Origin: an uncultured Alphaproteobacteria bacterium
GTDB taxonomy: Bacteria > Pseudomonadota > Alphaproteobacteria > HIMB59 > GCA-002718135
DNA: 34,528 nucleotides
Assembly: GCA_902512415.1 (NCBI GenBank)
Contig: CABXJB010000008.1
Span: forward strand, 1 to 34,528
Direction: 5' to 3'
The translations under genes were made by a program, and so were the position numbers. Under the pieces are notes generated by a model that saw only the letters and a list, made by a program, of their open reading frames with translations, was not told the origin of the DNA and searched no databases. Shown in pieces: positions 1,841 through 14,409 of this stretch. Within the stretch, counting starts at the first letter, position 1; each line of letters begins with the position of its first letter.

Positions 1841-3040
1841 ATGGAAAAAGAAATTTATAAAATAATTGATAAGGAAAAACTTAATATTGTTGGTGAATCG
1901 ATTGAAAATGCTCACGGTTTACCTAATGAATGTTATTTAAATGGACCATATACAAATATTGAACGTAAAAAAATTTTTGAAGATAAATGGGTTACTATTG
2001 GTGTAGCAAGCTCTATACCCAACCCAGGAGATACTAAACCGTTTGACTTACTTGGAATTCCTCTCATTATTATTCGTGATAAAAAAAATCAAGTAAGAGT
2101 TTTTCATAATGTATGTAGTCACAGAGGATATAAATTAATTAATGAAAGCTGTTCTTTAAAAAATGTTTTACGATGCCCCTATCACTCGTGGTCTTACGAT
2201 TTTGAAGGTAATTTAATAGCAACACCTCACTTAGGAGGAATTAATAAAAATGAACATGTTGATTTTGATAAATCCAAAAGTAAACTAAAAGAAGTAAGTT
2301 CAACCGTTTGGCTTGACTTAATTATGGTAAATATTTCTGGTAATGAATTACCTTTTGAAGAATATATCAAACCACTAGAAGAAAGGTGGGCAGATTTTTG
2401 GACGAAAGAGGATCAAGCCATGATTTCTCATGCTGAAGATTATGGATATTTTCTTCTAGAAGCTAAATGTAATTGGAAGTTTGCTATAGAAAATTATTGT
2501 GAGAGCTATCATTTACCGTTTGTTCATCCTGGTCTAAATGCCTATTCAAAAATTGATGATCATTATCATATACAAGGATTGCCAAATCGTTTTGCTGGAC
2601 AAGGTACTGTCGTGTATGATCCGCGATTTAAAAATGATAAAAAGTTTCCAACCTTCCCAGGTTGGTCAAAAGAAAAAGAAAAGCATGCTGAGTATGTGGC
2701 ATTGTTTCCAAATGTGATGCTAGGAATTCATAAAGATCATTACTATGTATATTGGTTAGAACCTGTAAGTCATGATTTTACAAGAGAACATATGGAAATT
2801 TACTATGTGGGAGAAGAAGCAGCTCGTGGAAATACTTATAAATCCCTAAGAAAACAAAATTTTGAACAGTGGCATAGTATTCAATCAGAAGACTTAAGTA
2901 TTATTGAAGGAATGCAACAGGGTCGAAACTCTCCAGTATACAATGGTGGAAATTTTTCACCTGTTCTTGATAATCCTACCCACCATTTTAATAAGTGGGT
3001 TGCTACTTCATTAACAGACAATGATTTTTCAACAAATTAG
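1841..3040 (+). CDS. Rieske [2Fe-2S] aromatic-ring-hydroxylating-type oxygenase alpha subunit (GbcA/CntA/stachydrine demethylase-like)
   Basis: Rieske motif CSHRGYKL...CPYHSW and mononuclear iron site NYCESYHLPFVHP. Confidence 0.85.
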   Translation: MEKEIYKIIDKEKLNIVGESIENAHGLPNECYLNGPYTNIERKKIFEDKWVTIGVASSIPNPGDTKPFDLLGIPLIIIRDKKNQVRVFHNVCSHRGYKLINESCSLKNVLRCPYHSWSYDFEGNLIATPHLGGINKNEHVDFDKSKSKLKEVSSTVWLDLIMVNISGNELPFEEYIKPLEERWADFWTKEDQAMISHAEDYGYFLLEAKCNWKFAIENYCESYHLPFVHPGLNAYSKIDDHYHIQGLPNRFAGQGTVVYDPRFKNDKKFPTFPGWSKEKEKHAEYVALFPNVMLGIHKDHYYVYWLEPVSHDFTREHMEIYYVGEEAARGNTYKSLRKQNFEQWHSIQSEDLSIIEGMQQGRNSPVYNGGNFSPVLDNPTHHFNKWVATSLTDNDFSTN

Positions 3041-3050
3041 AAAGTAACAA

Positions 3051-5093
3051 ATGACAGACTCATTACTACAACCTTTTCAGTTGAAACATTTGAATCTAAA
3101 AAATCGCATTTTAACCACAAGTCATGAACCAGCCTATAATGAAGATGGATTTCCAAAAGATAGGTATATAGCTTACCATTTGGAAAGAGCTAAAGGGGGA
3201 ATAGCGATGACTATGACTGCAGGTTCAGCTGTAGTATCAAAGGACAGTCCTCCTTCTTTTGATAATATTCATGCTTATAAAGATGAAGTTGTGCCTTGGA
3301 TTAAAAAACTCACAAAAGTAATTCATGATCAAGATTGTGCGATAATGATACAATTAACACATTTAGGCAGAAGAACATCATGGAATAAAGGAGATTGGCT
3401 TCCTTCAATTTCTTCTGGAAAACACCGCGAACCTGCACATAAAGCTTTTCCTAAAGTCGCAGAGAGTTGGGATATTCAAAGAATAATTAAAGAGTTTGGA
3501 GATGCTGCAGAAAGAATGAAGGAAGGGGGTATGGATGGTGTTGAGCTTGAGGGTCAAGGACATTTAATTGGACAATTTTTATCTCCATTAACAAACGAAT
3601 TAGAAAATGAATATGGTGGCAGTTTAGAAAATAGATTACGTTTTACACTAGATATTTTATCTGAAATTAGAAAAAAAGTTGGTAAAAATTTTATTTTGGG
3701 AATACGTAGCGTCTTTGATGAAGTTCAAGCAGGAGGAATAACAAAAACAGACGGATTCAAGATTGCTAAAATTTTATCTGAATCAGGTTTGATAGATTAC
3801 TTAAATATTAATAGAGGACGAATACATACCGATCCAATTTTAACAAAACAGATACCAATTCAAGGAATGAAGAGCGCTCCCCATTTAGATTTTGCGGGTG
3901 AAATTAAAAAAGAGATTAATTTACCTGTATTTCATGCATCTAAAATTTCTGATGTAGCAACAGCTAGATATGCTATTTCTAATGGTTTAGTTGATATGGT
4001 TGGTATGACTAGAGGACACTTAGCAGATCCATACATTGTTACAAAAATAAAAGAAAAAAGAGAAGATGATATTAGACCATGTGTTGGAGCAACTTATTGT
4101 TTAGATAGAATTTATCAAGGAGAAGAAGCCTTATGTATACATAATGCTGCAACAGGTAGAGAGTTAAGATTTCCAAATATTATTACTGCATCAAAATCAA
4201 AAAAAAAGATTGTTATTGTTGGCGCCGGCCCTGGAGGACTTGAAGCGGCAAGGATTGCTGGGGAAAAAGGTCATGAAGTTGTTGTTTTTGAGGCAGCGCC
4301 TGATCCAGGGGGGCAAATTAGATTATGTGCAAAATCTAACAGAAGAAAAGATATGATAGGTATCATTGATTGGAGGATGCAACAATGCGCAAAAAGAAAT
4401 GTTAAATTTAATTTTAATATTTTAGCTGAAAGTCAACATGTTCTTGAGGAGAATCCTGATACTGTCATTATTGCAACGGGAGGGATGCCCAACCTTGAAC
4501 TTTTTGAAACAAAAAAAGATTTAGAAAATGTTTTTACAAGCTGGGATATAATTTCAGGGGATATTAAGTTAGCTAAAAATATATTAATCTATGATGAGGC
4601 GGGGGATCATACCGCTATGCAATCAGCAGAAATAGCCATTGAAAATGGATCAACAGTTGAATTTATGACACCTGACCGATTAATTTCTTCTGAAATTATG
4701 GGAATGAATTTAACTCCTTATTTAAAAAATCTTCAAAATAAAAAAATAACATATTCCATTGCTAAAAGATTAATAGATGTATCGATACAAGGAAATAAAT
4801 TAAATGCTGTCATTGGTTCTGATTATGATGGACAGTTTAAATACAACTCTACTTATGATCAAATTTTTTTAAACTATGGAGTAAAACCTTTAGATGAGTT
4901 ATATTTTAATCTTGTATCTCTCTCCAAAAATGAAGGTGAAGTGAACTACGCTCAATTTATAAAAGGTGAGCAACAAAATATTATTAAAAATAAAAATAAC
5001 AAATTTAATTTATATAGAATAGGAGATGCTGTTTCTTCTAGAAATATCCATGCCGCTATTTATGATGCTTTAAGATTAGTAATAAACTTATAA
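3051..5093 (+). CDS. NADH:flavin oxidoreductase / TMADH-DgcA-like demethylating flavoprotein (OYE-type barrel plus FAD/NAD(P) domain)
   Basis: 680 aa; N-terminal FMN barrel (LLQPFQLKHLNLKNRI, DGVELEGQGHLIGQFLSPLTNE), Cys cluster CVGATYC..LC, then IVIVGAGPGGLEAARIAGEKGHEVVVFE dinucleotide-binding fold. Starts 10 bp after the Rieske gene. Confidence 0.85.
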   Translation: MTDSLLQPFQLKHLNLKNRILTTSHEPAYNEDGFPKDRYIAYHLERAKGGIAMTMTAGSAVVSKDSPPSFDNIHAYKDEVVPWIKKLTKVIHDQDCAIMIQLTHLGRRTSWNKGDWLPSISSGKHREPAHKAFPKVAESWDIQRIIKEFGDAAERMKEGGMDGVELEGQGHLIGQFLSPLTNELENEYGGSLENRLRFTLDILSEIRKKVGKNFILGIRSVFDEVQAGGITKTDGFKIAKILSESGLIDYLNINRGRIHTDPILTKQIPIQGMKSAPHLDFAGEIKKEINLPVFHASKISDVATARYAISNGLVDMVGMTRGHLADPYIVTKIKEKREDDIRPCVGATYCLDRIYQGEEALCIHNAATGRELRFPNIITASKSKKKIVIVGAGPGGLEAARIAGEKGHEVVVFEAAPDPGGQIRLCAKSNRRKDMIGIIDWRMQQCAKRNVKFNFNILAESQHVLEENPDTVIIATGGMPNLELFETKKDLENVFTSWDIISGDIKLAKNILIYDEAGDHTAMQSAEIAIENGSTVEFMTPDRLISSEIMGMNLTPYLKNLQNKKITYSIAKRLIDVSIQGNKLNAVIGSDYDGQFKYNSTYDQIFLNYGVKPLDELYFNLVSLSKNEGEVNYAQFIKGEQQNIIKNKNNKFNLYRIGDAVSSRNIHAAIYDALRLVINL

Positions 5094-5099
5094 ATACAA

Positions 5100-6374
5100 T
5101 TAAACCAGATTAAGAGGAATGGAAGATAATAATTTCAACCCTTTATCAGTAACTAAATACTGGTCTTCTAATTTTGCCCCTTCATTTCCGCCTACTTCCC
5201 CAATATAACTTTCAACACACACCACCATATTTTCTTGAAAGGCGCCGCTATAATCTCCATTACTATAATCTTCATTGGGATAAGCAATAAACGGCCATTC
5301 GTCACTCATTCCAACACCATGTATTTGACATGGATAGTGATTATCAAAACAATTATCTGGAAGTTGCCAGGCTTTTTCTGCAAATTCTCTAAAAGATACT
5401 CCGGGTTTAATTAATCGTTCATTATATTTTACATTGTCATATGCCAAACTATGAATTTTATTTTGATCATTGCTTAACTTTCTACCTTCTACAAATGTTC
5501 TCGAAATATCAGCGCAATATCCATACGGTCCAACCATATCGGTATCAAAAGCAACGAGCTCACCTTCTTGTATAATTCTATTACTGCACTCTTGAAACCA
5601 GGGGTTAGTTTTTGGGCCTGAATTTAGTAATCTTGTTTCAAACCATTCACCTCCATTTTCAATGTTTGTTTTATGTAAAATTGACCACAATTCTTCTTCT
5701 GTCATTCCTGCTTTTAAATTTTCATGCATAAGTAAAATGCCTTTTTCAGCTGTTTTAATTGAAGCTTTCATGCATATAATCTCATCTTGAGACTTTATCG
5801 ATCTTGCAATCTCCAAAAATTTTTGAGCGTTAGTTATTTTATAATTATAATTATTGTTTAAAGCATTGATTCCAGCTGGATCACAAACATCTATAGCCAG
5901 TTTTTTATTTTCAGAACTATACTGTTTCATTAGATCATCAATAATCTTTGACCATTCAAGAGCTTTATCATAAACATTATTTCCCCAAGAAAAATGATCC
6001 CAGCTGATAACTTCTCTTACCTCATCGATGGTGCAATTATTCTCGTAAATATGTTCACATTTTGGATATTCAAATAATACTACTGGCCCACTGGCAGGAA
6101 TAAAAACATATCGTGTCATTAAGTGAAAAGAAAATACCGCCATATTTCTTGTATCCGTAGCATAACGAATATTTATCGGATCAAATAAAATACATGCACC
6201 TATCTCATTTTGTTGTAATTGATCTCTTACTCTATTTAATCGATACATTCGCATACGATCAAAATTAATTTTATCTTCATAAAGTTTTGGTTTAAATCTG
6301 TTGCTTATAATAGAATCTTTTTCCCCAAACTTGGGACCAATTTTTCTATTGATATTCTTTGTATTAAAATTCAT
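5100..6374 (-). CDS. M24 metallopeptidase-fold protein, DddP (DMSP lyase)-like
   Basis: GGEWFETRLLNSGPKTNPWFQECSNRIIQEGELVAFDTDMVGPYGYCADISRTF, IHGVGMSDEWP, VCVESYIGEVGG and AKLEDQYL retain the D-D-D-H-E-E metal-ligand pattern and resemble recalled DddP sequence. Biochemical function not provable from sequence. Confidence 0.7.
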   Translation of the reverse strand: MNFNTKNINRKIGPKFGEKDSIISNRFKPKLYEDKINFDRMRMYRLNRVRDQLQQNEIGACILFDPINIRYATDTRNMAVFSFHLMTRYVFIPASGPVVLFEYPKCEHIYENNCTIDEVREVISWDHFSWGNNVYDKALEWSKIIDDLMKQYSSENKKLAIDVCDPAGINALNNNYNYKITNAQKFLEIARSIKSQDEIICMKASIKTAEKGILLMHENLKAGMTEEELWSILHKTNIENGGEWFETRLLNSGPKTNPWFQECSNRIIQEGELVAFDTDMVGPYGYCADISRTFVEGRKLSNDQNKIHSLAYDNVKYNERLIKPGVSFREFAEKAWQLPDNCFDNHYPCQIHGVGMSDEWPFIAYPNEDYSNGDYSGAFQENMVVCVESYIGEVGGNEGAKLEDQYLVTDKGLKLLSSIPLNLV

Positions 6375-6420: not shown

Positions 6421-6798
6421 ATGGATGAAGAATTATTTAAAAAAGGTCTAGAAAAAAGAAAAGCTACATTAGGTAAAGAATATGTAGAAAAAAATTTAGA
6501 AAAAGCTGATGATTTTACACTGCCTTTTCAACAGGCCATGACTGAATGGTGTTGGGGTTTTGGTTGGGGAGATGAAGTTATTGATATGAAAACTAGATCA
6601 ATGATGAATTTATCAATGATTGGAGCTTTAGATAAAATGCAAGAGTGGGAAATTCATTGCAGAGGTGCAATTACTAATGGTGTTACAAAAGAAGAAATAA
6701 GAGCAATAATTCATGTAATTGGTATTTATTGTGGCGTACCCCAGGCTTTAGAATGTTTTAGAGTTGCTAAAAAAGTATTAGAAGAAGAAAATCTTTAA
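6421..6798 (+). CDS. Carboxymuconolactone decarboxylase (CMD/AhpD-like) family protein
   Basis: 125 aa with CMD-type core (RSMMNLSMIGALDKMQEWEIHCRGAITNGVTKEEIRAIIHVIGIYCGVPQALE); SD-like AGAGGAAGAT before ATG. Confidence 0.8.
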   Translation: MDEELFKKGLEKRKATLGKEYVEKNLEKADDFTLPFQQAMTEWCWGFGWGDEVIDMKTRSMMNLSMIGALDKMQEWEIHCRGAITNGVTKEEIRAIIHVIGIYCGVPQALECFRVAKKVLEEENL

Positions 6799-6806
6799 AT
6801 TGGTTT

Positions 6807-7727
6807 TTAATTATAAATATAAAAAATATAACCAACGTATAATATCAAACCAATAGATCCATAAGTCCTTCCTATTCTTTTTAAGAAAAACATAAAACCT
6901 AAAATCATTACAGTAACAAACAACATAAATAGTAAATCTTCAGCACCTATAACTGTAGGTATGCTAAAGTTACCAAAAAATGATGATACTCCTAGTACAC
7001 CTAAAACATTATAAATATTTGAACCTAAAACATTACCAAGTGCAAAATCAACTTTTCGCCTAACAGCAGATAAAATGCCTACAACTAGTTCCGGTAGAGA
7101 AGTTCCAAAAGCAACTAATGAAACTCCAATTATTGCTTCAGATATATTCAGTTGGTTTGCAATGTTTATAGCTGAGTCTACAAAAAGATCTGAGCCATAA
7201 ACTAATAAAATAATACCGCCGATAATAAATATAATAGATATTACAAGCGAATAATCACCTTTTTCTTCAACTTCAGAGATATCTAATGTGCCTTTTTTGA
7301 CCTGGAGCCACATAATAATAAATAGCAAACAGATTGATAAAATTCCAAATATAAAATTAAAAGATATAATTAAATAACTCATGACAATTAACATTACAGC
7401 TAGCGCAATATTAATCCAAGCCTGGTTAATTTGATTTTGGTTAATATTACTAATAGGAATTAAAAAAGATGTAGCCGCCATGACGAGTATTAAGTTTGCT
7501 ATATTACTGCCAATGACAGCACCAACAGCTAAATCAGCATGATTTGTGACAACAGCATTAATACTACTTGCTAATTCTGGTAAGGATGTTCCTCCAGCAA
7601 CAATCACTACACCAATAGCAAATAAAGAAACTTTAAATTTTCTTCCAAAACTAACCGAGCCTCTAATTATTAATTCTGCGCCTAATATTAAAAGAGCTAA
7701 ACCAACTATTAATAAAAATAAGTTCAC
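6807..7727 (-). CDS. Calcium/sodium antiporter, CaCA family (YrbG-like)
   Basis: Two alpha-repeat motifs GGTSLPELASS and AFGTSLPELVVG with multiple TM segments. Confidence 0.88.
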   Translation of the reverse strand: MNLFLLIVGLALLILGAELIIRGSVSFGRKFKVSLFAIGVVIVAGGTSLPELASSINAVVTNHADLAVGAVIGSNIANLILVMAATSFLIPISNINQNQINQAWINIALAVMLIVMSYLIISFNFIFGILSICLLFIIMWLQVKKGTLDISEVEEKGDYSLVISIIFIIGGIILLVYGSDLFVDSAINIANQLNISEAIIGVSLVAFGTSLPELVVGILSAVRRKVDFALGNVLGSNIYNVLGVLGVSSFFGNFSIPTVIGAEDLLFMLFVTVMILGFMFFLKRIGRTYGSIGLILYVGYIFYIYN

Positions 7728-7733
7728 TATAAA

Positions 7734-9068
7734 TTAACTACCGTAAATATAGTGTGGAAGCCATAAAGCAATTTGAGGAAAAATGATAATTAGAGCTAAT
7801 CCAATAACTTGAATTACCATAAATTGCATCATCCCAATATAAATATCTTTTAAATCCCATTCAGGGACAACACCTTTTAAAAAATATGCTGAGAGTGCTA
7901 CTGGTGGTGACAACCACGCTGTCTGTAAATTAACGGCAACAAGAATTGCAAACCAAATAAGATTAAATTCTAATCCTTCTATTAAAGGCAGTATAATTGG
8001 AACTACTATTAAAACAATTGGAACCCATTCTAGAGGCCAACCTAATAAAAAAATCATTCCCATTACTATTATTAAAATCAAATACCTATTTACCTCTAAG
8101 CCTAGTAGGAAGTCAGTAATCATTGTAGGTGTTCCTAATCTCGCAAACACAGATCCAAAAAAGTTGGAAGCTGCAACTAACAACATAATTAAAGCAGTTA
8201 TCTCTAATGTTTTGATTAACCCATCTTTTAATTTTTCTAATGTTAATTTACGATAAGCGAGCGCTAATAAAATAGAACCAAGAGCACCACATCCCGCTGC
8301 TTCAGTTGGTGTTGCTAAACCTAACAAGATACTTCCAAGTGCAGAAAATACTAGTAATGCAGGAGGCACCAATCCCATAAAAAATTCATATATAACAACC
8401 TTAATATCTTTTTCTCTATCTTCTTCAGGAACTACTGGTCCAAGAGAAGGATCTAAATAGCACCTAATTGTAGTGTAGCCAGCATAGAGAACAGCTAACA
8501 TAATTCCTGGAATAATTGCTGCTGCAAAAAGATCCGTAACGGGTATTTCCATTATTGGCCCCATAACAACAAGCATAATACTTGGGGGGATTAAAATACC
8601 TAATGTTCCTCCAGCTGTAATAGTTCCAGCAGCTAATCTCACGTCATATCCAGATCTATTCATAGACTTCGCAGCCATTATTCCTAGTATTGTTACTGAA
8701 GCACCGACAATACCTGTTGCTGCAGCAAAAATTATAGATACAAAAAGTACTGCATAAAAAAGTGATCCTCTTACACGAGACAGCATCATTTGAACGGATG
8801 CAAATAGCCTTTCCATTAATCCAGCTTGTTCCATCATGATACCCATAAAAACAAAGAGCGGGACCGCGGCTAATGTTTGTTCTGTCATGACCATGGAGAA
8901 CTGCAGTGTCATTAAATAAAAAACTAATTTCCCAAATCCTAAATATCCAAAAACAAAACCAAGGAAAATTAAGGTGAACGAGATAGGAAAGCCAACAAAA
9001 ATTGAAAATAGCATTACTGCTATCAAAAAAATTCCTAAAATTTCTGGACTAACAAACTCTGCAATCAT
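7734..9068 (-). CDS. dctM: TRAP transporter large permease (DctM/IseM-like)
   Basis: 444 aa hydrophobic protein with DctM features (VPLFVFMGIMMEQAGL, GASVTILGIMAAKSM, GGTLGILIPPSIMLVVMG, ATPTEAAGCGALG). Confidence 0.92.
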   Translation of the reverse strand: MIAEFVSPEILGIFLIAVMLFSIFVGFPISFTLIFLGFVFGYLGFGKLVFYLMTLQFSMVMTEQTLAAVPLFVFMGIMMEQAGLMERLFASVQMMLSRVRGSLFYAVLFVSIIFAAATGIVGASVTILGIMAAKSMNRSGYDVRLAAGTITAGGTLGILIPPSIMLVVMGPIMEIPVTDLFAAAIIPGIMLAVLYAGYTTIRCYLDPSLGPVVPEEDREKDIKVVIYEFFMGLVPPALLVFSALGSILLGLATPTEAAGCGALGSILLALAYRKLTLEKLKDGLIKTLEITALIMLLVAASNFFGSVFARLGTPTMITDFLLGLEVNRYLILIIVMGMIFLLGWPLEWVPIVLIVVPIILPLIEGLEFNLIWFAILVAVNLQTAWLSPPVALSAYFLKGVVPEWDLKDIYIGMMQFMVIQVIGLALIIIFPQIALWLPHYIYGS

Positions 9069-9676
9069 TCGTCACCAGGCCATTTGCCATTTTTCATAGC
9101 ATAGTGACTTTTCAATAACTCTGATAATCCTTGAATTAATAAAAAAACAATTCCAAGCCACAAACAAGATTTAATTGGCCATAGATATGGCATCCATGCA
9201 GTATCCATACCTTTTTCTCCACGCTGAATTGATTCCATTACAAAAATGGTAGTCATATACAAACAGAAATATAGGCCAGGAAAATAAAAAAATATATATA
9301 ACCAAAAATCAACCATCCCTTGCGTTTTTATTTTAAAATTACGATATAAAAAATCAGCTCTAATATGCACTCCTCTGGATAAAGCATATCCTGACCCCAT
9401 CATAAACATTGCGCCGTAAAAAAATCTACTCATGTCATAAGCCCAATAAGTCGGGGCTAAAAAAAACTTTCTTGCTATAACTTCATATGCCATACACAAA
9501 AATAAAGGCACAGTAATCCAGCACACTGTCTTACCAATAAGTAAACTAAATTTATCAATATTTATTATTGTTTTATAAACCCAATTTGCCATATCAGTTG
9601 GTTTATCGAAATATCCAACTTTTCTTTCAGCAATTAGTTCATCTTTTAAATCATGGTCTTGAATATTATCTGACAT
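9065..9676 (-). CDS. dctQ: TRAP transporter small permease (DctQ/IseL-like)
   Basis: 203 aa, four TM segments, overlaps dctM by 4 bp. Confidence 0.88.
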   Translation of the reverse strand: MSDNIQDHDLKDELIAERKVGYFDKPTDMANWVYKTIINIDKFSLLIGKTVCWITVPLFLCMAYEVIARKFFLAPTYWAYDMSRFFYGAMFMMGSGYALSRGVHIRADFLYRNFKIKTQGMVDFWLYIFFYFPGLYFCLYMTTIFVMESIQRGEKGMDTAWMPYLWPIKSCLWLGIVFLLIQGLSELLKSHYAMKNGKWPGDE

Positions 9677-9696
9677 TTTATTATTCTACAGGAATA

Positions 9697-9722
9697 AAAG
9701 AGCGGACACTAGTCCGCTCTTT
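9697..9722 (-). terminator. Perfect 11-bp stem, 4-nt loop hairpin between dctP and dctQ (attenuator/terminator or mRNA stabiliser)
   Basis: AAAGAGCGGAC-ACTA-GTCCGCTCTTT. On the minus strand it follows the dctP stop and precedes dctQ; strongly GC-rich relative to surroundings. Confidence 0.75.
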
Positions 9723-9734
9723 ATTTACATTAAA

Positions 9735-10832
9735 TTATTTCAGTGTTGCAGCATGAGCCATACCTAACTTAGCGTTAGACATTTGAGCTCCACTCCAGAA
9801 AGGAACAGCAATATCAGCGAATTCTTTCATAGAAGTATAAACTTCATTAAAAAATTCATTTTCTTCAGCATTTTTATTTAAAGTTGCTAAAGCTGCTGCC
9901 ATGTATTCAGTAAAATAATCTGAAGGTGTGTCATGAAGAATAACACCAGCTTCTTCTGTTAACATTCTAAGAGCTTTTCCATTTTCATAAATTCTATCAG
10001 ATAAAGTTAACATCAATGATGCATCAGCTGCTACCTGTAATGAAGCTTTTTCATGATCGGTTAAACTATCATATGTAGTACCGTTCATATAAAAGTCTGC
10101 ATTTACAACAACTTGGTGCAAACCTTGAAGGTAGTAATGCTTTAAGACTTTTTGAAAACCAAATACACTATCAGGTTTTGGACAACACCATTCTGCCGCA
10201 TCAATTGTGCCAGCTTCAAGAGCAGGAAGAATATCTCCTCCGCCCATTGCTACTGAAGCAATACCAATATCTTTATATGTTTGACCTGGTATGCCTGGAG
10301 GTGTTCTAAAACGATATTTTCTAAAATCTTCCATGCTATTAATTGGTTCTTTAAACCAACCAAGAGCTTCAGGTCCAACAGGTTGAAGCATAAAACCTTT
10401 TATGTCTCTACCCATTTCATCCCAAAGTTGTTCGTATAATTCTTTTCCACCAGCAGCATTAAACCAAGATAAAAAAGCAAGGTTATCAATACCTACACCG
10501 CCACCTGCTACAGGTGAACCAAAAAGCATTGCAGCCGGATGTTCTCCTGACCAATAGTGAGTCCAAGCAAAACCACAGTCGATTAAGCCTTTATCAATAG
10601 CGTCTAGTGTTTCTTTTCCACCAACAACTGTACCTGCTGGCATTATTTCAAATTCTAAAGATCCACCAGTTAACAGTGTTACTCTATCAGTAAACTCTTC
10701 TTTTAATAGTCTAGCTTCATCACTTTTAGCATTCAAAACTGTTTGACACTTAAGTGTTTTAGCTTTTACAGATACAGTCATAAATCCTAAAGCAACAACT
10801 GTACCTAAAACTATAGTTAATAGTTTTTTCAT
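9735..10832 (-). CDS. dctP: TRAP transporter substrate-binding protein (DctP/TakP/IseK-like)
   Basis: Signal peptide MKKLLTIVLGTVVALGFMTVSVKA; DctP features (AMGGGDILPALEAGTIDAAEWCCP). The ORF-track start at 10877 is TTG; ATG at 10832 has an ideal SD (GGAGGAAAC-ATG), so the start is revised. Confidence 0.92.
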   Translation of the reverse strand: MKKLLTIVLGTVVALGFMTVSVKAKTLKCQTVLNAKSDEARLLKEEFTDRVTLLTGGSLEFEIMPAGTVVGGKETLDAIDKGLIDCGFAWTHYWSGEHPAAMLFGSPVAGGGVGIDNLAFLSWFNAAGGKELYEQLWDEMGRDIKGFMLQPVGPEALGWFKEPINSMEDFRKYRFRTPPGIPGQTYKDIGIASVAMGGGDILPALEAGTIDAAEWCCPKPDSVFGFQKVLKHYYLQGLHQVVVNADFYMNGTTYDSLTDHEKASLQVAADASLMLTLSDRIYENGKALRMLTEEAGVILHDTPSDYFTEYMAAALATLNKNAEENEFFNEVYTSMKEFADIAVPFWSGAQMSNAKLGMAHAATLK

Positions 10833-10842
10833 GTTTCCTCCC

Positions 10843-10911
10843 GAAATTAATAATGAAAAAGACCTAGCACATGCCAATTCATTTACAACCTTGTTCTCAG
10901 ATATTAATTTC
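10843..10911. promoter_or_regulatory. 10-bp perfect inverted repeat GAAATTAATA (10843-10852) / TATTAATTTC (10902-10911) in the divergent dctP-GMC intergenic region
   Basis: Read directly; arms separated by 49 nt, one near each gene's ribosome-binding site. Confidence 0.5.
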
Positions 10912-10927
10912 TTTAATAGAGGATATT

Positions 10928-12529
10928 ATGATTAAGGATTTTGATTATATAATTATTGGCGCAGGATCAGCTGGTTGTGTTTTGGCCAATAGACTATCTA
11001 AAAAAACAAATATTTCAGTACTATTAATAGAGGCAGGTGGTAAAGATAATTATCCATGGATACATATTCCGGTTGGCTACTATAAAACTATGCACAATCC
11101 TAAGACTGATTGGTGCTTTAAAACAGAACCTGATGACTCAATTAATGGACGATCAATAAATTATCCTCGGGGTAAAACTTTAGGAGGTAGTTCTTCTATT
11201 AATGGACTTTTATATATTAGAGGGCAATCACGAGATTACGATATATGGCGTCAACAAGGAAATACTGGATGGGGTTGGGATGATGTTCTTCCATACTTTA
11301 TCAAATCAGAAAATCAGGAAAGAGGAGCAAATGAATTTCATGGTGCAGGTGGTCCTTTATCTGTTTCTGATATCAGAATTAAACTAGATATTTTAGATGA
11401 ATTTCAAAATGCCGCAGAAGAAATAGGTATCCCCAAAATAAAAGATTTTAATACTGGAGATAATTTTGGTTGTGATTATTTTCAGGTCACTGAAAAAAAT
11501 GGGTTACGTTGTAGTACAGCTGTTGCTTATCTAAATCCTGCAAAAAAAAGATCTAATTTAAAAGTAGAAGTTAACGCACATGTAAAAAAAATTAATTTTG
11601 AGGGGAAAAAGGCTGCTGGTATTTCATATTGGAAAAATAATGAATTAATTACCGTAAAGGCTAATAAAGAAGTAATTTTATCTGCCGGATCAATTGGTTC
11701 TCCACATATTTTACAAACATCAGGTATTGGTGATGAAAAGAAATTACGTGATTTAGGCATTCCTATTATTCATCACAACACCAGTATAGGGAAAAACTTA
11801 CAAGATCACTTGATGTTACGACCAGTTTACAAAGTGAAAAATATTAAAACATTAAATAAAACTATTAATAGTTTTTTTGGCAAAATGATGATTGGAATGG
11901 AATTTGTGTTTTTTAGAAAAGGCGTCATGACGATGGGGGCCAGTCAATTATGTGGTTTTGCTAAAAGCGATGAGAATAGAGAAACGCCAAATTTACAATT
12001 TCATGTTCAACCTATTAGTACTGATAGATTAGGTGGTTCTAATCTTCATAGCTTTAATGCGTTTACACCCACTGTCGCAAACATCAGACCCACAAGCAGA
12101 GGGGAAGTTTTTATTATTTCAAAAGACAGCAGAGATTATCCAAAAATCAAAATGAATTATTTATCTACTGATGAAGATCGACAGGTATCTGCTGCAGGTA
12201 TAAGATTAATTAGAAAAATTATTTTTGAAAGTGAAACATTTAAAAAATACAATCCAGAAGAATTTAGACCAGGCATACAATTTCAAAGCGATGAAGAAAT
12301 AATTCAAGCGGCAAGCGAACATGTTCAAACTATATTCCACCCAGTTGGAACTTGTAAAATGGGGAAGGATGATACCTCAGTTGTTAGTGACAGACTAAAA
12401 GTTCATGGTATTGACAATTTAAGAGTTGTCGATGCTTCTATTATGCCAAATATTACATCAGGCAATACTAATGCTCCGACAATTATGATTGCTGAAAAAG
12501 CAGCTGATATAATTATTGCTGATCAATAA
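10928..12529 (+). CDS. GMC-family FAD oxidoreductase; candidate isethionate dehydrogenase (IseJ-like), otherwise choline-dehydrogenase-like
   Basis: DFDYIIIGAGSAGCVLANRLS, YPRGKTLGGSSSINGLLYIRGQ, HPVGTCKMG, NTNAPTIMIAEKAAD motifs. Start revised from 10871 to ATG 10928, preceded by an AGAGGA SD. Substrate inferred from linkage to xsc and TRAP genes. Confidence 0.85.
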   Translation: MIKDFDYIIIGAGSAGCVLANRLSKKTNISVLLIEAGGKDNYPWIHIPVGYYKTMHNPKTDWCFKTEPDDSINGRSINYPRGKTLGGSSSINGLLYIRGQSRDYDIWRQQGNTGWGWDDVLPYFIKSENQERGANEFHGAGGPLSVSDIRIKLDILDEFQNAAEEIGIPKIKDFNTGDNFGCDYFQVTEKNGLRCSTAVAYLNPAKKRSNLKVEVNAHVKKINFEGKKAAGISYWKNNELITVKANKEVILSAGSIGSPHILQTSGIGDEKKLRDLGIPIIHHNTSIGKNLQDHLMLRPVYKVKNIKTLNKTINSFFGKMMIGMEFVFFRKGVMTMGASQLCGFAKSDENRETPNLQFHVQPISTDRLGGSNLHSFNAFTPTVANIRPTSRGEVFIISKDSRDYPKIKMNYLSTDEDRQVSAAGIRLIRKIIFESETFKKYNPEEFRPGIQFQSDEEIIQAASEHVQTIFHPVGTCKMGKDDTSVVSDRLKVHGIDNLRVVDASIMPNITSGNTNAPTIMIAEKAADIIIADQ

Positions 12530-12531
12530 TT

Positions 12532-14301
12532 TTATTGGGCTACAGTATCTTTACTATTAATACCAGCAACCTCAACAGGTGCTTTCATAGCATCTCTTCT
12601 AAAAGGTTCTCCTAATTCTTGATTTAAAATAACCTCAATAAAAGTTGTAATGCCATTCATTTGGTCCAGGCATGATACTTTTAGTGCTTCAGTTAACTCT
12701 GATTGAGTTGTAACTTTAACACCTTTAAAACCACATGCCTCTGCAATTTTTGAATAACTTAATTTTGGATCAAGTTCTGTTCCGATAAAATTATTATCAT
12801 ACCAAAGTGTTGTATTTCTTTTTTCTGCACCCCATTGATAATTTCGGAATATAACCATTGTGATATTTGGCCATTCTTCTCGACTACATGAGGTCATCTC
12901 ACTCATACTAATTCCAAAAGCACCATCTCCTGAAAAACCAATAACTGGAGTATCAGGACATCCAATTTTAGCTCCTAACACTGAAGGAAAACCATACCCA
13001 CATGGTCCAAATAAACCAGGTGCTAAATATTTTCGTCCCTTTTCAAAAGTAGGATAAGCATTTCCAATTGCACAATTATTTCCAATGTCACTTGAAATAA
13101 TAGCATCATCGGGCAAACCGGCTTGAATAGCTCTCCACGCCATACGAGGTGACATTCTATCGGGATCTCTTTCCCTAGAATCTTTATTCCACGATGTTCC
13201 TTCATCGTCCTCTTCATGATCGAGGCTTGTTAGTGTTTGAAGCCATGCAGATTTAGTCTGATGAATTAATGCTTTCCTGTCTTCTCTTCCATCATCACCT
13301 GCAGTTGATGATAATTGACTAAGAATTTGCTCAGCAACTAGTTTAGCATCACCGCAAATTCCTATTGATATTTTTTTTGCTAAACCTATTCGATCAGAGT
13401 TTATATCAACTTGAACAATCTTTGCTTTTTTGGGCCAGTAGTCAATTCCATAACCTGGTAAAGTAGAAAATGGATTTAATCTTGTTCCAAGTGCCAATAC
13501 AACATCAGCTTTTGAAATTATTTCCATAGCCGCTTTAGAGCCATTGTATCCAAGTGGGCCAACCGCTAGAGGATGTTTTCCTGGAAAACTATCATTGTGT
13601 TGGTATCCACAAGCTACTGGAGCGTCTAATTTTTCTGCTATTTTTTTACAATCTTCAATGGCATCAGCAAGTACTACACCTGCACCAGATAATATTACTG
13701 GAAATTTTGCATTAGATAAAAGTTCTGCAGCTTCACTAATAGCCGTAGCACCTCCAGCAGGCCTTTCAAACTCTATAATGGATGGCAATTCAATATCTAC
13801 AACTTGTGTCCAAAAATCTCTTGGCACATTTATTTGAGCAGGTGCTGATCCTCTTTTCGCTTTTAATATCACTCTATTTAAAACTTCAGCCATTCTGGAT
13901 GCATCACGAACCTCTTCCTGATAACAAACCATGTCTTTAAATAAGTTCATTTGTTCAACTTCTTGAAAACCACCCTGACCCATTGTTTTGTTTGCAGCTT
14001 GGGGTGTGACTAAAAGCATAGGTGTATGATTCCAATAAGCTGTTTTTATAGGAGTTACTAAACCTGTTATACCCGGTCCATTTTGTGCAATACACATGGC
14101 AATTTTTCCAGTTGATCTGGTATAGCCATCAGCAATTAGCCCGCCATTAGACTCGTGAGCAACATCCCAGAAAGTAATACCAGCTTTTGGAAAAAGATCT
14201 GAAATTGGCATAAAAGCCGAACCAATTATTCCAAAAGAATGTTGTATTCCGTGCTTTTGTAAAACTTTTACAAAAGCTTCCTCAGTAGTCATTTTAGCCA
14301 T
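12532..14301 (-). CDS. xsc: Sulfoacetaldehyde acetyltransferase (ThDP-dependent)
   Basis: GSAFMPISDLFPKAGITFWDVAHESNGGLIADGYTRSTGKIAMCIAQNGPGITGLVTPIKTAYWNHTPMLLVTPQAANKTMGQGGFQEVEQM is characteristic of Xsc; ThDP-binding GFSGDGAFGISM. Track start 14307 is TTG; ATG 14301 with upstream GGAG preferred. Confidence 0.9.
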   Translation of the reverse strand: MAKMTTEEAFVKVLQKHGIQHSFGIIGSAFMPISDLFPKAGITFWDVAHESNGGLIADGYTRSTGKIAMCIAQNGPGITGLVTPIKTAYWNHTPMLLVTPQAANKTMGQGGFQEVEQMNLFKDMVCYQEEVRDASRMAEVLNRVILKAKRGSAPAQINVPRDFWTQVVDIELPSIIEFERPAGGATAISEAAELLSNAKFPVILSGAGVVLADAIEDCKKIAEKLDAPVACGYQHNDSFPGKHPLAVGPLGYNGSKAAMEIISKADVVLALGTRLNPFSTLPGYGIDYWPKKAKIVQVDINSDRIGLAKKISIGICGDAKLVAEQILSQLSSTAGDDGREDRKALIHQTKSAWLQTLTSLDHEEDDEGTSWNKDSRERDPDRMSPRMAWRAIQAGLPDDAIISSDIGNNCAIGNAYPTFEKGRKYLAPGLFGPCGYGFPSVLGAKIGCPDTPVIGFSGDGAFGISMSEMTSCSREEWPNITMVIFRNYQWGAEKRNTTLWYDNNFIGTELDPKLSYSKIAEACGFKGVKVTTQSELTEALKVSCLDQMNGITTFIEVILNQELGEPFRRDAMKAPVEVAGINSKDTVAQ

Positions 14302-14409
14302 CTTCAAATCTCCAGTTAGTATATTAGGTACTTATTTGGACTTATTTATTAAAATTCAAATTTTTGAGTATAATAATTTAGGATCATAATCTAGGGATTT
14401 AATTAGATA

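Follow-up and report, generated by a model that had tools for sequence, protein, structure and literature searches.

The window analysed here, a stretch of 34,528 nucleotides from an uncultured alphaproteobacterium, belongs to the HIMB59/AEGEAN-169 order. On its minus strand, positions 5100-6374 hold an intact open reading frame that starts with ATG and encodes a DddP-like M24 enzyme of 424 amino acids (hereafter the M24 protein), in which Pfam detected a Peptidase_M24 (PF00557, 100.6 bits) and a Creatinase_N domain (PF01321, 27.5 bits). The closest loci, 91-94% identical, were titled Pelagibacterales SAG-MED31 or uncultured Alphaproteobacteria, and further orthologues carried the titles HIMB59, MarineAlpha5, and Pelagibacteraceae. 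The ORF was retained across the order at 62-94% identity with reading frames nearly always intact. Orthologues of 62-67% identity were found in most genomes of one family (f2), and the gene was patchily distributed in another (f1). A decayed copy with eight in-frame stops was seen in one f2 genome (G498:C1:47139-48377).

The M24 gene faces two genes on the plus strand. The first (1841..3040) encodes a Rieske oxygenase, assigned by Pfam, PDB comparison, and residue reading, whose nearest PDB match was the carnitine monooxygenase CntA (120 bits). At the bridging position, a role described for E205 of CntA (PMC10952381), this protein carries Glu, within NYCESYH. The cysteine pair of CntA and Stc2 is missing. 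The second gene (3051..5093) encodes an OYE/TMADH-type flavoprotein of 680 amino acids, assigned by Pfam, NCBIfam, and residue reading, and lies tail-to-tail with the M24 gene, ending at 5093 with a 6-bp gap before the M24 gene ends at 5100. The flavoprotein has Ala for one Cys (CVGATYC) of what we take to be the Fe-S cluster motif of the TMADH type. Since the Rieske protein is without the cysteine pair and the flavoprotein has Ala for Cys, the term "demethylation module", used for this pair in the initial annotation, is plausible only. The pairing with M24 was kept only in near relatives, with M24 proteins 91-94% identical. The OYE/TMADH-like subfamily defined by CVGA-x-YC, in which the second Fe-S Cys is replaced by Ala (3051-5093 in the window), was also present in two unrelated genomes (L098 3264-5300 and L074 1-1282; 62% and 53% identity), each time adjoining a DddP-like gene. 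On the other side of M24, a divergent gene for a carboxymuconolactone-decarboxylase-family protein (6421..6798, plus strand; Pfam) is kept beside M24 in HIMB59 relatives. Beyond it, positions 6807-14307 hold a TRAP transporter (DctM 7734-9068, DctQ 9065-9676, and DctP 9735-10877), a GMC/choline-dehydrogenase-like flavoprotein (10871-12529), and the sulfoacetaldehyde acetyltransferase Xsc (12532-14307; 940 bits vs a cut-off of 676). This stretch looks like an isethionate catabolic cluster, presumably IseKLM, IseJ, and Xsc.

The resemblance of the M24 protein to DddP far exceeds chance. It matched the NCBIfam DddP model at 3.8e-109 (365.4 bits) and RlDddP (4rzy) at 5e-83 by phmmer, and prolidases resembled it weakly (E 1e-12 to 1e-13). 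The stretches that had been read as DddP-like (GGEWFETRLL, TNPWFQEC, and HGVGMSDEWP) were all found in the protein, as was each element of the claimed M24 metal-ligand pattern: DTD (D277, D279), ADIS (D289), HGVG (H352), VES (E388), and LED (E403). Positions were transferred from RlDddP (Rl) through the printed 4rzy alignment, which was checked against its own numbering. All six metal ligands of DddP were present, encoded on the minus strand: D277 and D279 (Rl D295 and D297; 5538..5546), D289 (Rl D307; 5508..5510), H352 (Rl H371; at the end of 5319..5336, a segment that opens with Y347, Rl Y366), E388 (Rl E406; 5211..5213), and E403 (Rl E421; 5166..5168). D279 corresponds to the extra sixth ligand of DddP, where the outgroup carries Gly. 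D358 (Rl D377; 5301..5303, minus strand) occupies the place of the proposed catalytic base of DddP (PMC4108388, PMC5395565), a position that is His in the peptidase-like outgroup. At Rl positions 277 and 377, four of the five outgroup rows had His where the M24 protein has W259 and D358. A review of DddP describes the two M24 histidines as replaced by Asp and Phe, the Asp being the base (PMC5395565); Trp instead of Phe in our alignment is likely a one-column shift, with F260 directly after W259. An AlphaFold model of the monomer (pLDDT 85.3) had RlDddP and RdDddP (4rzy, 4b28) as its top four PDB folds by Foldseek (E 1.8e-43, TM 0.85). The next fold other than DddP matched at 6.6e-24 (prolidases), and creatinase and DoeA were also far behind.

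Other members of the M24 superfamily were weighed against this resemblance. With Xaa-Pro dipeptidase and prolidase the protein shares the M24 fold and five metal ligands, and peptidase activity, as in Xaa-Pro dipeptidase or aminopeptidase P, would fit the weak prolidase similarity as well as the Dpp-type ABC transporter immediately upstream of one orthologue (L008). However, both peptidase-type His positions are exchanged (W259, D358), the sixth ligand D279 is present, prolidase models scored far under their cut-offs, and separate PepQ-like M24 proteins occur in HIMB59 genomes; in DddP, the same changes accompany no measurable Val-Pro activity (PMC5395565). Peptidase membership was rejected by HMM, fold, and residues, W259 and D358 standing where most outgroup rows have His, and we consider this activity very improbable. 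Hydrolysis of the C-N or amide bond in a small N-methylated or cyclic solute, in the manner of creatinase or ectoine hydrolase, agrees with the M24/creatinase-N architecture, with the fold common to creatinase and DoeA (TM about 0.66), and with the surrounding amine-catabolism genes. DoeA/EutD and creatinase are M24-fold enzymes for osmolyte-type small molecules. The fold is nevertheless much further from these enzymes (15-17% identity) than from DddP, and the loss of the peptidase-type histidines together with D279 and D358 points to DddP chemistry, leaving such a hydrolase unlikely. Membership in DoeA was rejected (ectoine hydrolase models gave 47.6 bits against a cut-off of 575 and 22.8 against 613), as was membership in creatinase, DddP being by far closer in fold.

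We further investigated if the M24 protein is itself a DddP. The NCBIfam model NF043017 has a curated cut-off of 600 bits, against which the protein scored 365.4; this cut-off is strict, in that several members of the DddP clade scored 509-592 bits. In a tree of 69 proteins, where two very long outgroup rows left the root position and the nearest DddP-like group of HIMB59 unfixed, the DddP clade (support 100/99) included RlDddP and three of our loci (L060, L061, and L063), and the proteins of the HIMB59 order formed a clade of their own (100/99) outside it. Joining the two clades cost 43 log units and was rejected by the AU test on 47 proteins without the long outgroup rows (p-AU 0.002). Identity was 36-38% to RlDddP, 33-38% to the Roseobacter-type DddP core, and 33-43% to DddP-clade members. 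The sulfur in DddP is bound by a Trp and a Tyr, according to the review (PMC5395565). At the substrate-cage tryptophan W95 of DddP, the M24 protein has F81 (6132..6134, minus strand, by alignment); this position was W in all 34 DddP-clade rows and F in all 10 HIMB59 proteins. Judged by score, clade, and W95, the M24 protein is not a DddP. The description "DddP-like" thus held and a possible DMSP lyase became less credible. Placement outside the DddP clade, one half of what was to speak against the proposal, was observed; the other half, grouping with prolidases or creatinases, was not. Tyr and Asp at the catalytic positions of DddP are kept (Y347, D358), and the substrate-cage W95 is replaced.

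The genomic context of DMSP metabolism differed as well. The DddP-clade loci L060, L061, and L063 adjoin a gene from a cluster of MDR reductases resembling AcuI, and the dddP of SAR116 was reported with such an AcuI-like neighbour (PMC3338564). AcuI is an accompanying trait of DddP and not a strict criterion. It was found in none of 70 genomes of the HIMB59 order at E <= 1e-30, the host genome of the window being 62% complete, and Pelagibacter possesses AcuI homologues (PMC3338564). This absence argues against acrylate production, short of proof. DmdA was above its cut-off in 56 of the 70 genomes; in the host genome, only relatives below the cut-off (339 bits) were found. A divergent DMSP or DMSOP lyase, with the chemistry and substrate of DddP and with DMS (or DMSO) plus acrylate as products, has points in its favour: DddP is the closest characterised relative in sequence and fold, the catalytic residues are retained, W95 is exchanged for another aromatic, and the order handles DMSP through DmdA. 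Teng et al. 2021 reported activity for nine environmental sequences from five families including DddP (PMC8520302), a set that may or may not comprise HIMB59-type proteins. Against it stand the position outside the DddP clade, the score and the low identity to the Roseobacter-type core, and the lack of AcuI in the order, and we hold such a lyase to be doubtful, about as much so as the hydrolase.

The retained Y366 and D377 do not discriminate in its favour, being family-wide. Our set of the DddP-like family comprised 118 proteins, and several genomes carried two to four such genes each. Among the 74 proteins outside DddP and HIMB59, D297 was kept in 73, Y366 in 73, D377 in 61, and W95 in 59. 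Y366 and D377 were consequently rejected as diagnostic of DMSP cleavage; the four residues mark the broad DddP-like family rather than that reaction. The M24 protein belongs to this uncharacterised DddP-like M24 branch, having the DddP-type residue set and lying outside DddP proper. With the other alphaproteobacterial DddP-like proteins, which often number several per genome, it shares this residue set, at most 48% identity, and gene neighbourhoods of methylated-amine metabolism, and it differs from them in the separate HIMB59 clade and its invariant F at 95.

The initial annotation had held that context matters for M24 enzymes, and the orthologues in HIMB59 genomes bore this out. Rieske and OYE genes together lay beside M24 in the window and in five other loci (L003-L006 and L013), and a Rieske gene without OYE was present in L007-L011. 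A Rieske gene was near M24 in f1 genomes and, as a 41% identical homologue, in L015 and L042. In L008, M24 is the last gene of the Dpp-type ABC operon, and in L124 it adjoins the same transporter gene. Carnitine-dehydrogenase-like, 2OG-oxygenase-like, and hydroxyisobutyrate-dehydrogenase-like genes follow M24 in L007, L009, and L011; the first of these in L007 scored 359 bits, under its cut-off, and starts 17 bp downstream of M24 on the same strand. The same-strand series after M24 in L007 (7289-11159) consists of this gene, a HalD/PhyH-like oxygenase, a 3-hydroxyisobutyrate-dehydrogenase-like gene, and a second HalD-like gene, and is a possible pathway for a beta-hydroxy onium acid. An aminotransferase gene lies beside M24 in L012. 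Two homocysteine-methyltransferase (BHMT-like) genes and an FAD oxidase are divergent from M24 in L141 and its relatives, and in L178 M24 adjoins a BHMT-like gene (PF02574 match) and an FAD oxidoreductase/GcvT-like gene of 806 amino acids, the latter read from the sequence. A gene for a 370-aa protein precedes M24 in 26 loci of f2, overlapping it in many and separated by a short gap in a few. This protein (L016 4890-6002 and 25 further f2 loci) had no Pfam or NCBIfam match and contains a SAM-binding-like motif, FDAGTGDGS. The common theme of these neighbours is the catabolism of small N-methylated compounds, with no one fixed substrate. More complete HIMB59 genomes carry 2-4 copies of Rieske and 2-5 copies of S-methyl_trans in about 1.4 Mb, so single neighbour cases within HIMB59 could be due to chance.

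For the wider DddP-like family, genes around the fetched loci were called with a GC3-aware procedure and clustered, and cluster representatives were identified by Pfam and NCBIfam. Recurrent neighbours were MttB-family methyltransferases, DMGDH-type DAO-FAO_M-GcvT proteins, MR_MLE enzymes, and AMP ligases. With expected counts taken from genome-wide copy numbers, and with P values that are optimistic since the loci are related, 11 of 57 DddP-like loci had an MttB gene no more than 4 kb away versus 0.52 expected (P about 1e-11), and 7 of the 57 had a DMGDH-type FAD/GcvT protein nearby versus 0.57 expected (P about 2e-6). On the tree, no fewer than 11 changes were needed to account for the MttB label, indicating that the link was gained or lost repeatedly, and W95, Y366, and D377 were kept in nearly all MttB-linked proteins. 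MttB thus accompanies other DddP-like proteins, whereas Rieske/OYE, BHMT-like, or carnitine-dehydrogenase-like genes accompany those of HIMB59. Two MttB-family proteins have been tied to glycine betaine demethylation in R. pomeroyi (PMC12478193). Elsewhere in the set, a DddP-clade gene is preceded on its own strand, at a distance of about 58 bp, by a gene for a Rieske protein with the same bridging Glu (L062 3-1406 and 1465-2802, G079), and in L159-L167 (GTDB family code f174) DddP-like genes scoring 470-483 bits have an adjacent same-strand DMGDH-type gene, with a phosphonate-binding-like protein at the other side.

These neighbourhoods also bear on whether the M24 gene has an unrelated function and lies by coincidence, in a streamlined genome, next to catabolic genes that vary. 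The differing M24 neighbours among genera, the convergent orientation in the window, and the common occurrence of the gene in f2 regardless of neighbours, patchy as it is in f1, are all consistent with such an accident, but across the family MttB and DMGDH are enriched too strongly and too repeatedly to be explained by chance, which makes it improbable. The link to a methylated osmolyte, proposed from the adjacent Rieske/OYE pair, is in this sense partly supported, family-wide and by the varied demethylation genes in HIMB59, while that particular adjacency extends only to near relatives. The better-supported half of the original proposal is accordingly a new osmolyte hydrolase or lyase, as methylated-amine genes recur both family-wide and across the HIMB59 orthologues.

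We tentatively favour, at somewhat under even confidence, the view that the M24 protein is a metal lyase (or hydrolase) of the DddP type whose substrate is an N-methylated onium osmolyte, a reading that draws on the modelled fold, the residues, the phylogenetic position, and the neighbourhood statistics. It belongs to the large DddP-like M24 branch, within which DddP, the genuine DMSP lyase, forms one nested clade. The enzyme would be cytosolic, dinuclear in metal, and probably dimeric. Because it keeps the catalytic apparatus of DddP, with all six metal ligands, Tyr347, and Asp358 in the role of general base, and lacks the peptidase histidines, chemistry of the DddP type is most likely, from which a lyase rather than a hydrolase is inferred. 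The metals would hold the carboxylate of the substrate, Asp358 would take the alpha proton, and the charged group would depart from the beta carbon. The likeliest class of substrate would be an N-methylated (quaternary ammonium) osmolyte from seawater, whose nitrogen part may then be handed to the demethylation enzymes encoded nearby. Several observations weigh against this onium reading. M24 is transcribed towards, and not with, the Rieske/OYE pair, and the pairing occurs only in close relatives. The ABC transporter (L008, L124), aminotransferase (L012), and SAM-methyltransferase-like neighbours do not point to a single substrate, and the base rate of Rieske and BHMT-like genes within HIMB59 is not negligible. 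The W95F exchange could also mean an altogether different pocket. To our knowledge, DddP is the only member of the DddP-like branch with an established activity. Our literature search returned no paper on this HIMB59 gene or on DddP-like non-lyases, and the AEGEAN-169 paper mentions neither DddP nor DMSP.

An extension of the favoured reading, speculative and clearly less probable than the reading itself, would make the whole DddP-like branch onium lyases that carry out beta-elimination of quaternary-ammonium osmolytes, trimethylammonium propionate or carnitine-like compounds for example, and feed the linked demethylases. DddP would then be an offshoot specialised for sulfur, and the enzyme of HIMB59, a lineage abundant in the ocean, would be a nitrogen-type member.

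DddP is among the most counted marine DMSP-lyase genes, and every DddP-like protein listed here scored better than 1e-40 on the DddP model. For DddP, one published survey listed an E-value of 1e-30 as its HMM threshold and no identity cut-off (PMC8520302), and another added 40% identity to ratified sequences (PMC10686828). With the M24 protein at 1e-109 and the DddP-like proteins past 1e-40, HIMB59 genes would probably be tallied among the DMS producers in surveys that rely on E-value only; for the M24 protein, the 40% identity filter is borderline. To list the HIMB59 enzyme among the sources of DMS, a climate gas, would probably be a mistake. Together, our data suggested that DddP originated in a family of quaternary-amine breakdown in which the metal site and the base were already present, and the origin of a DMS-producing enzyme thereby becomes directly testable.
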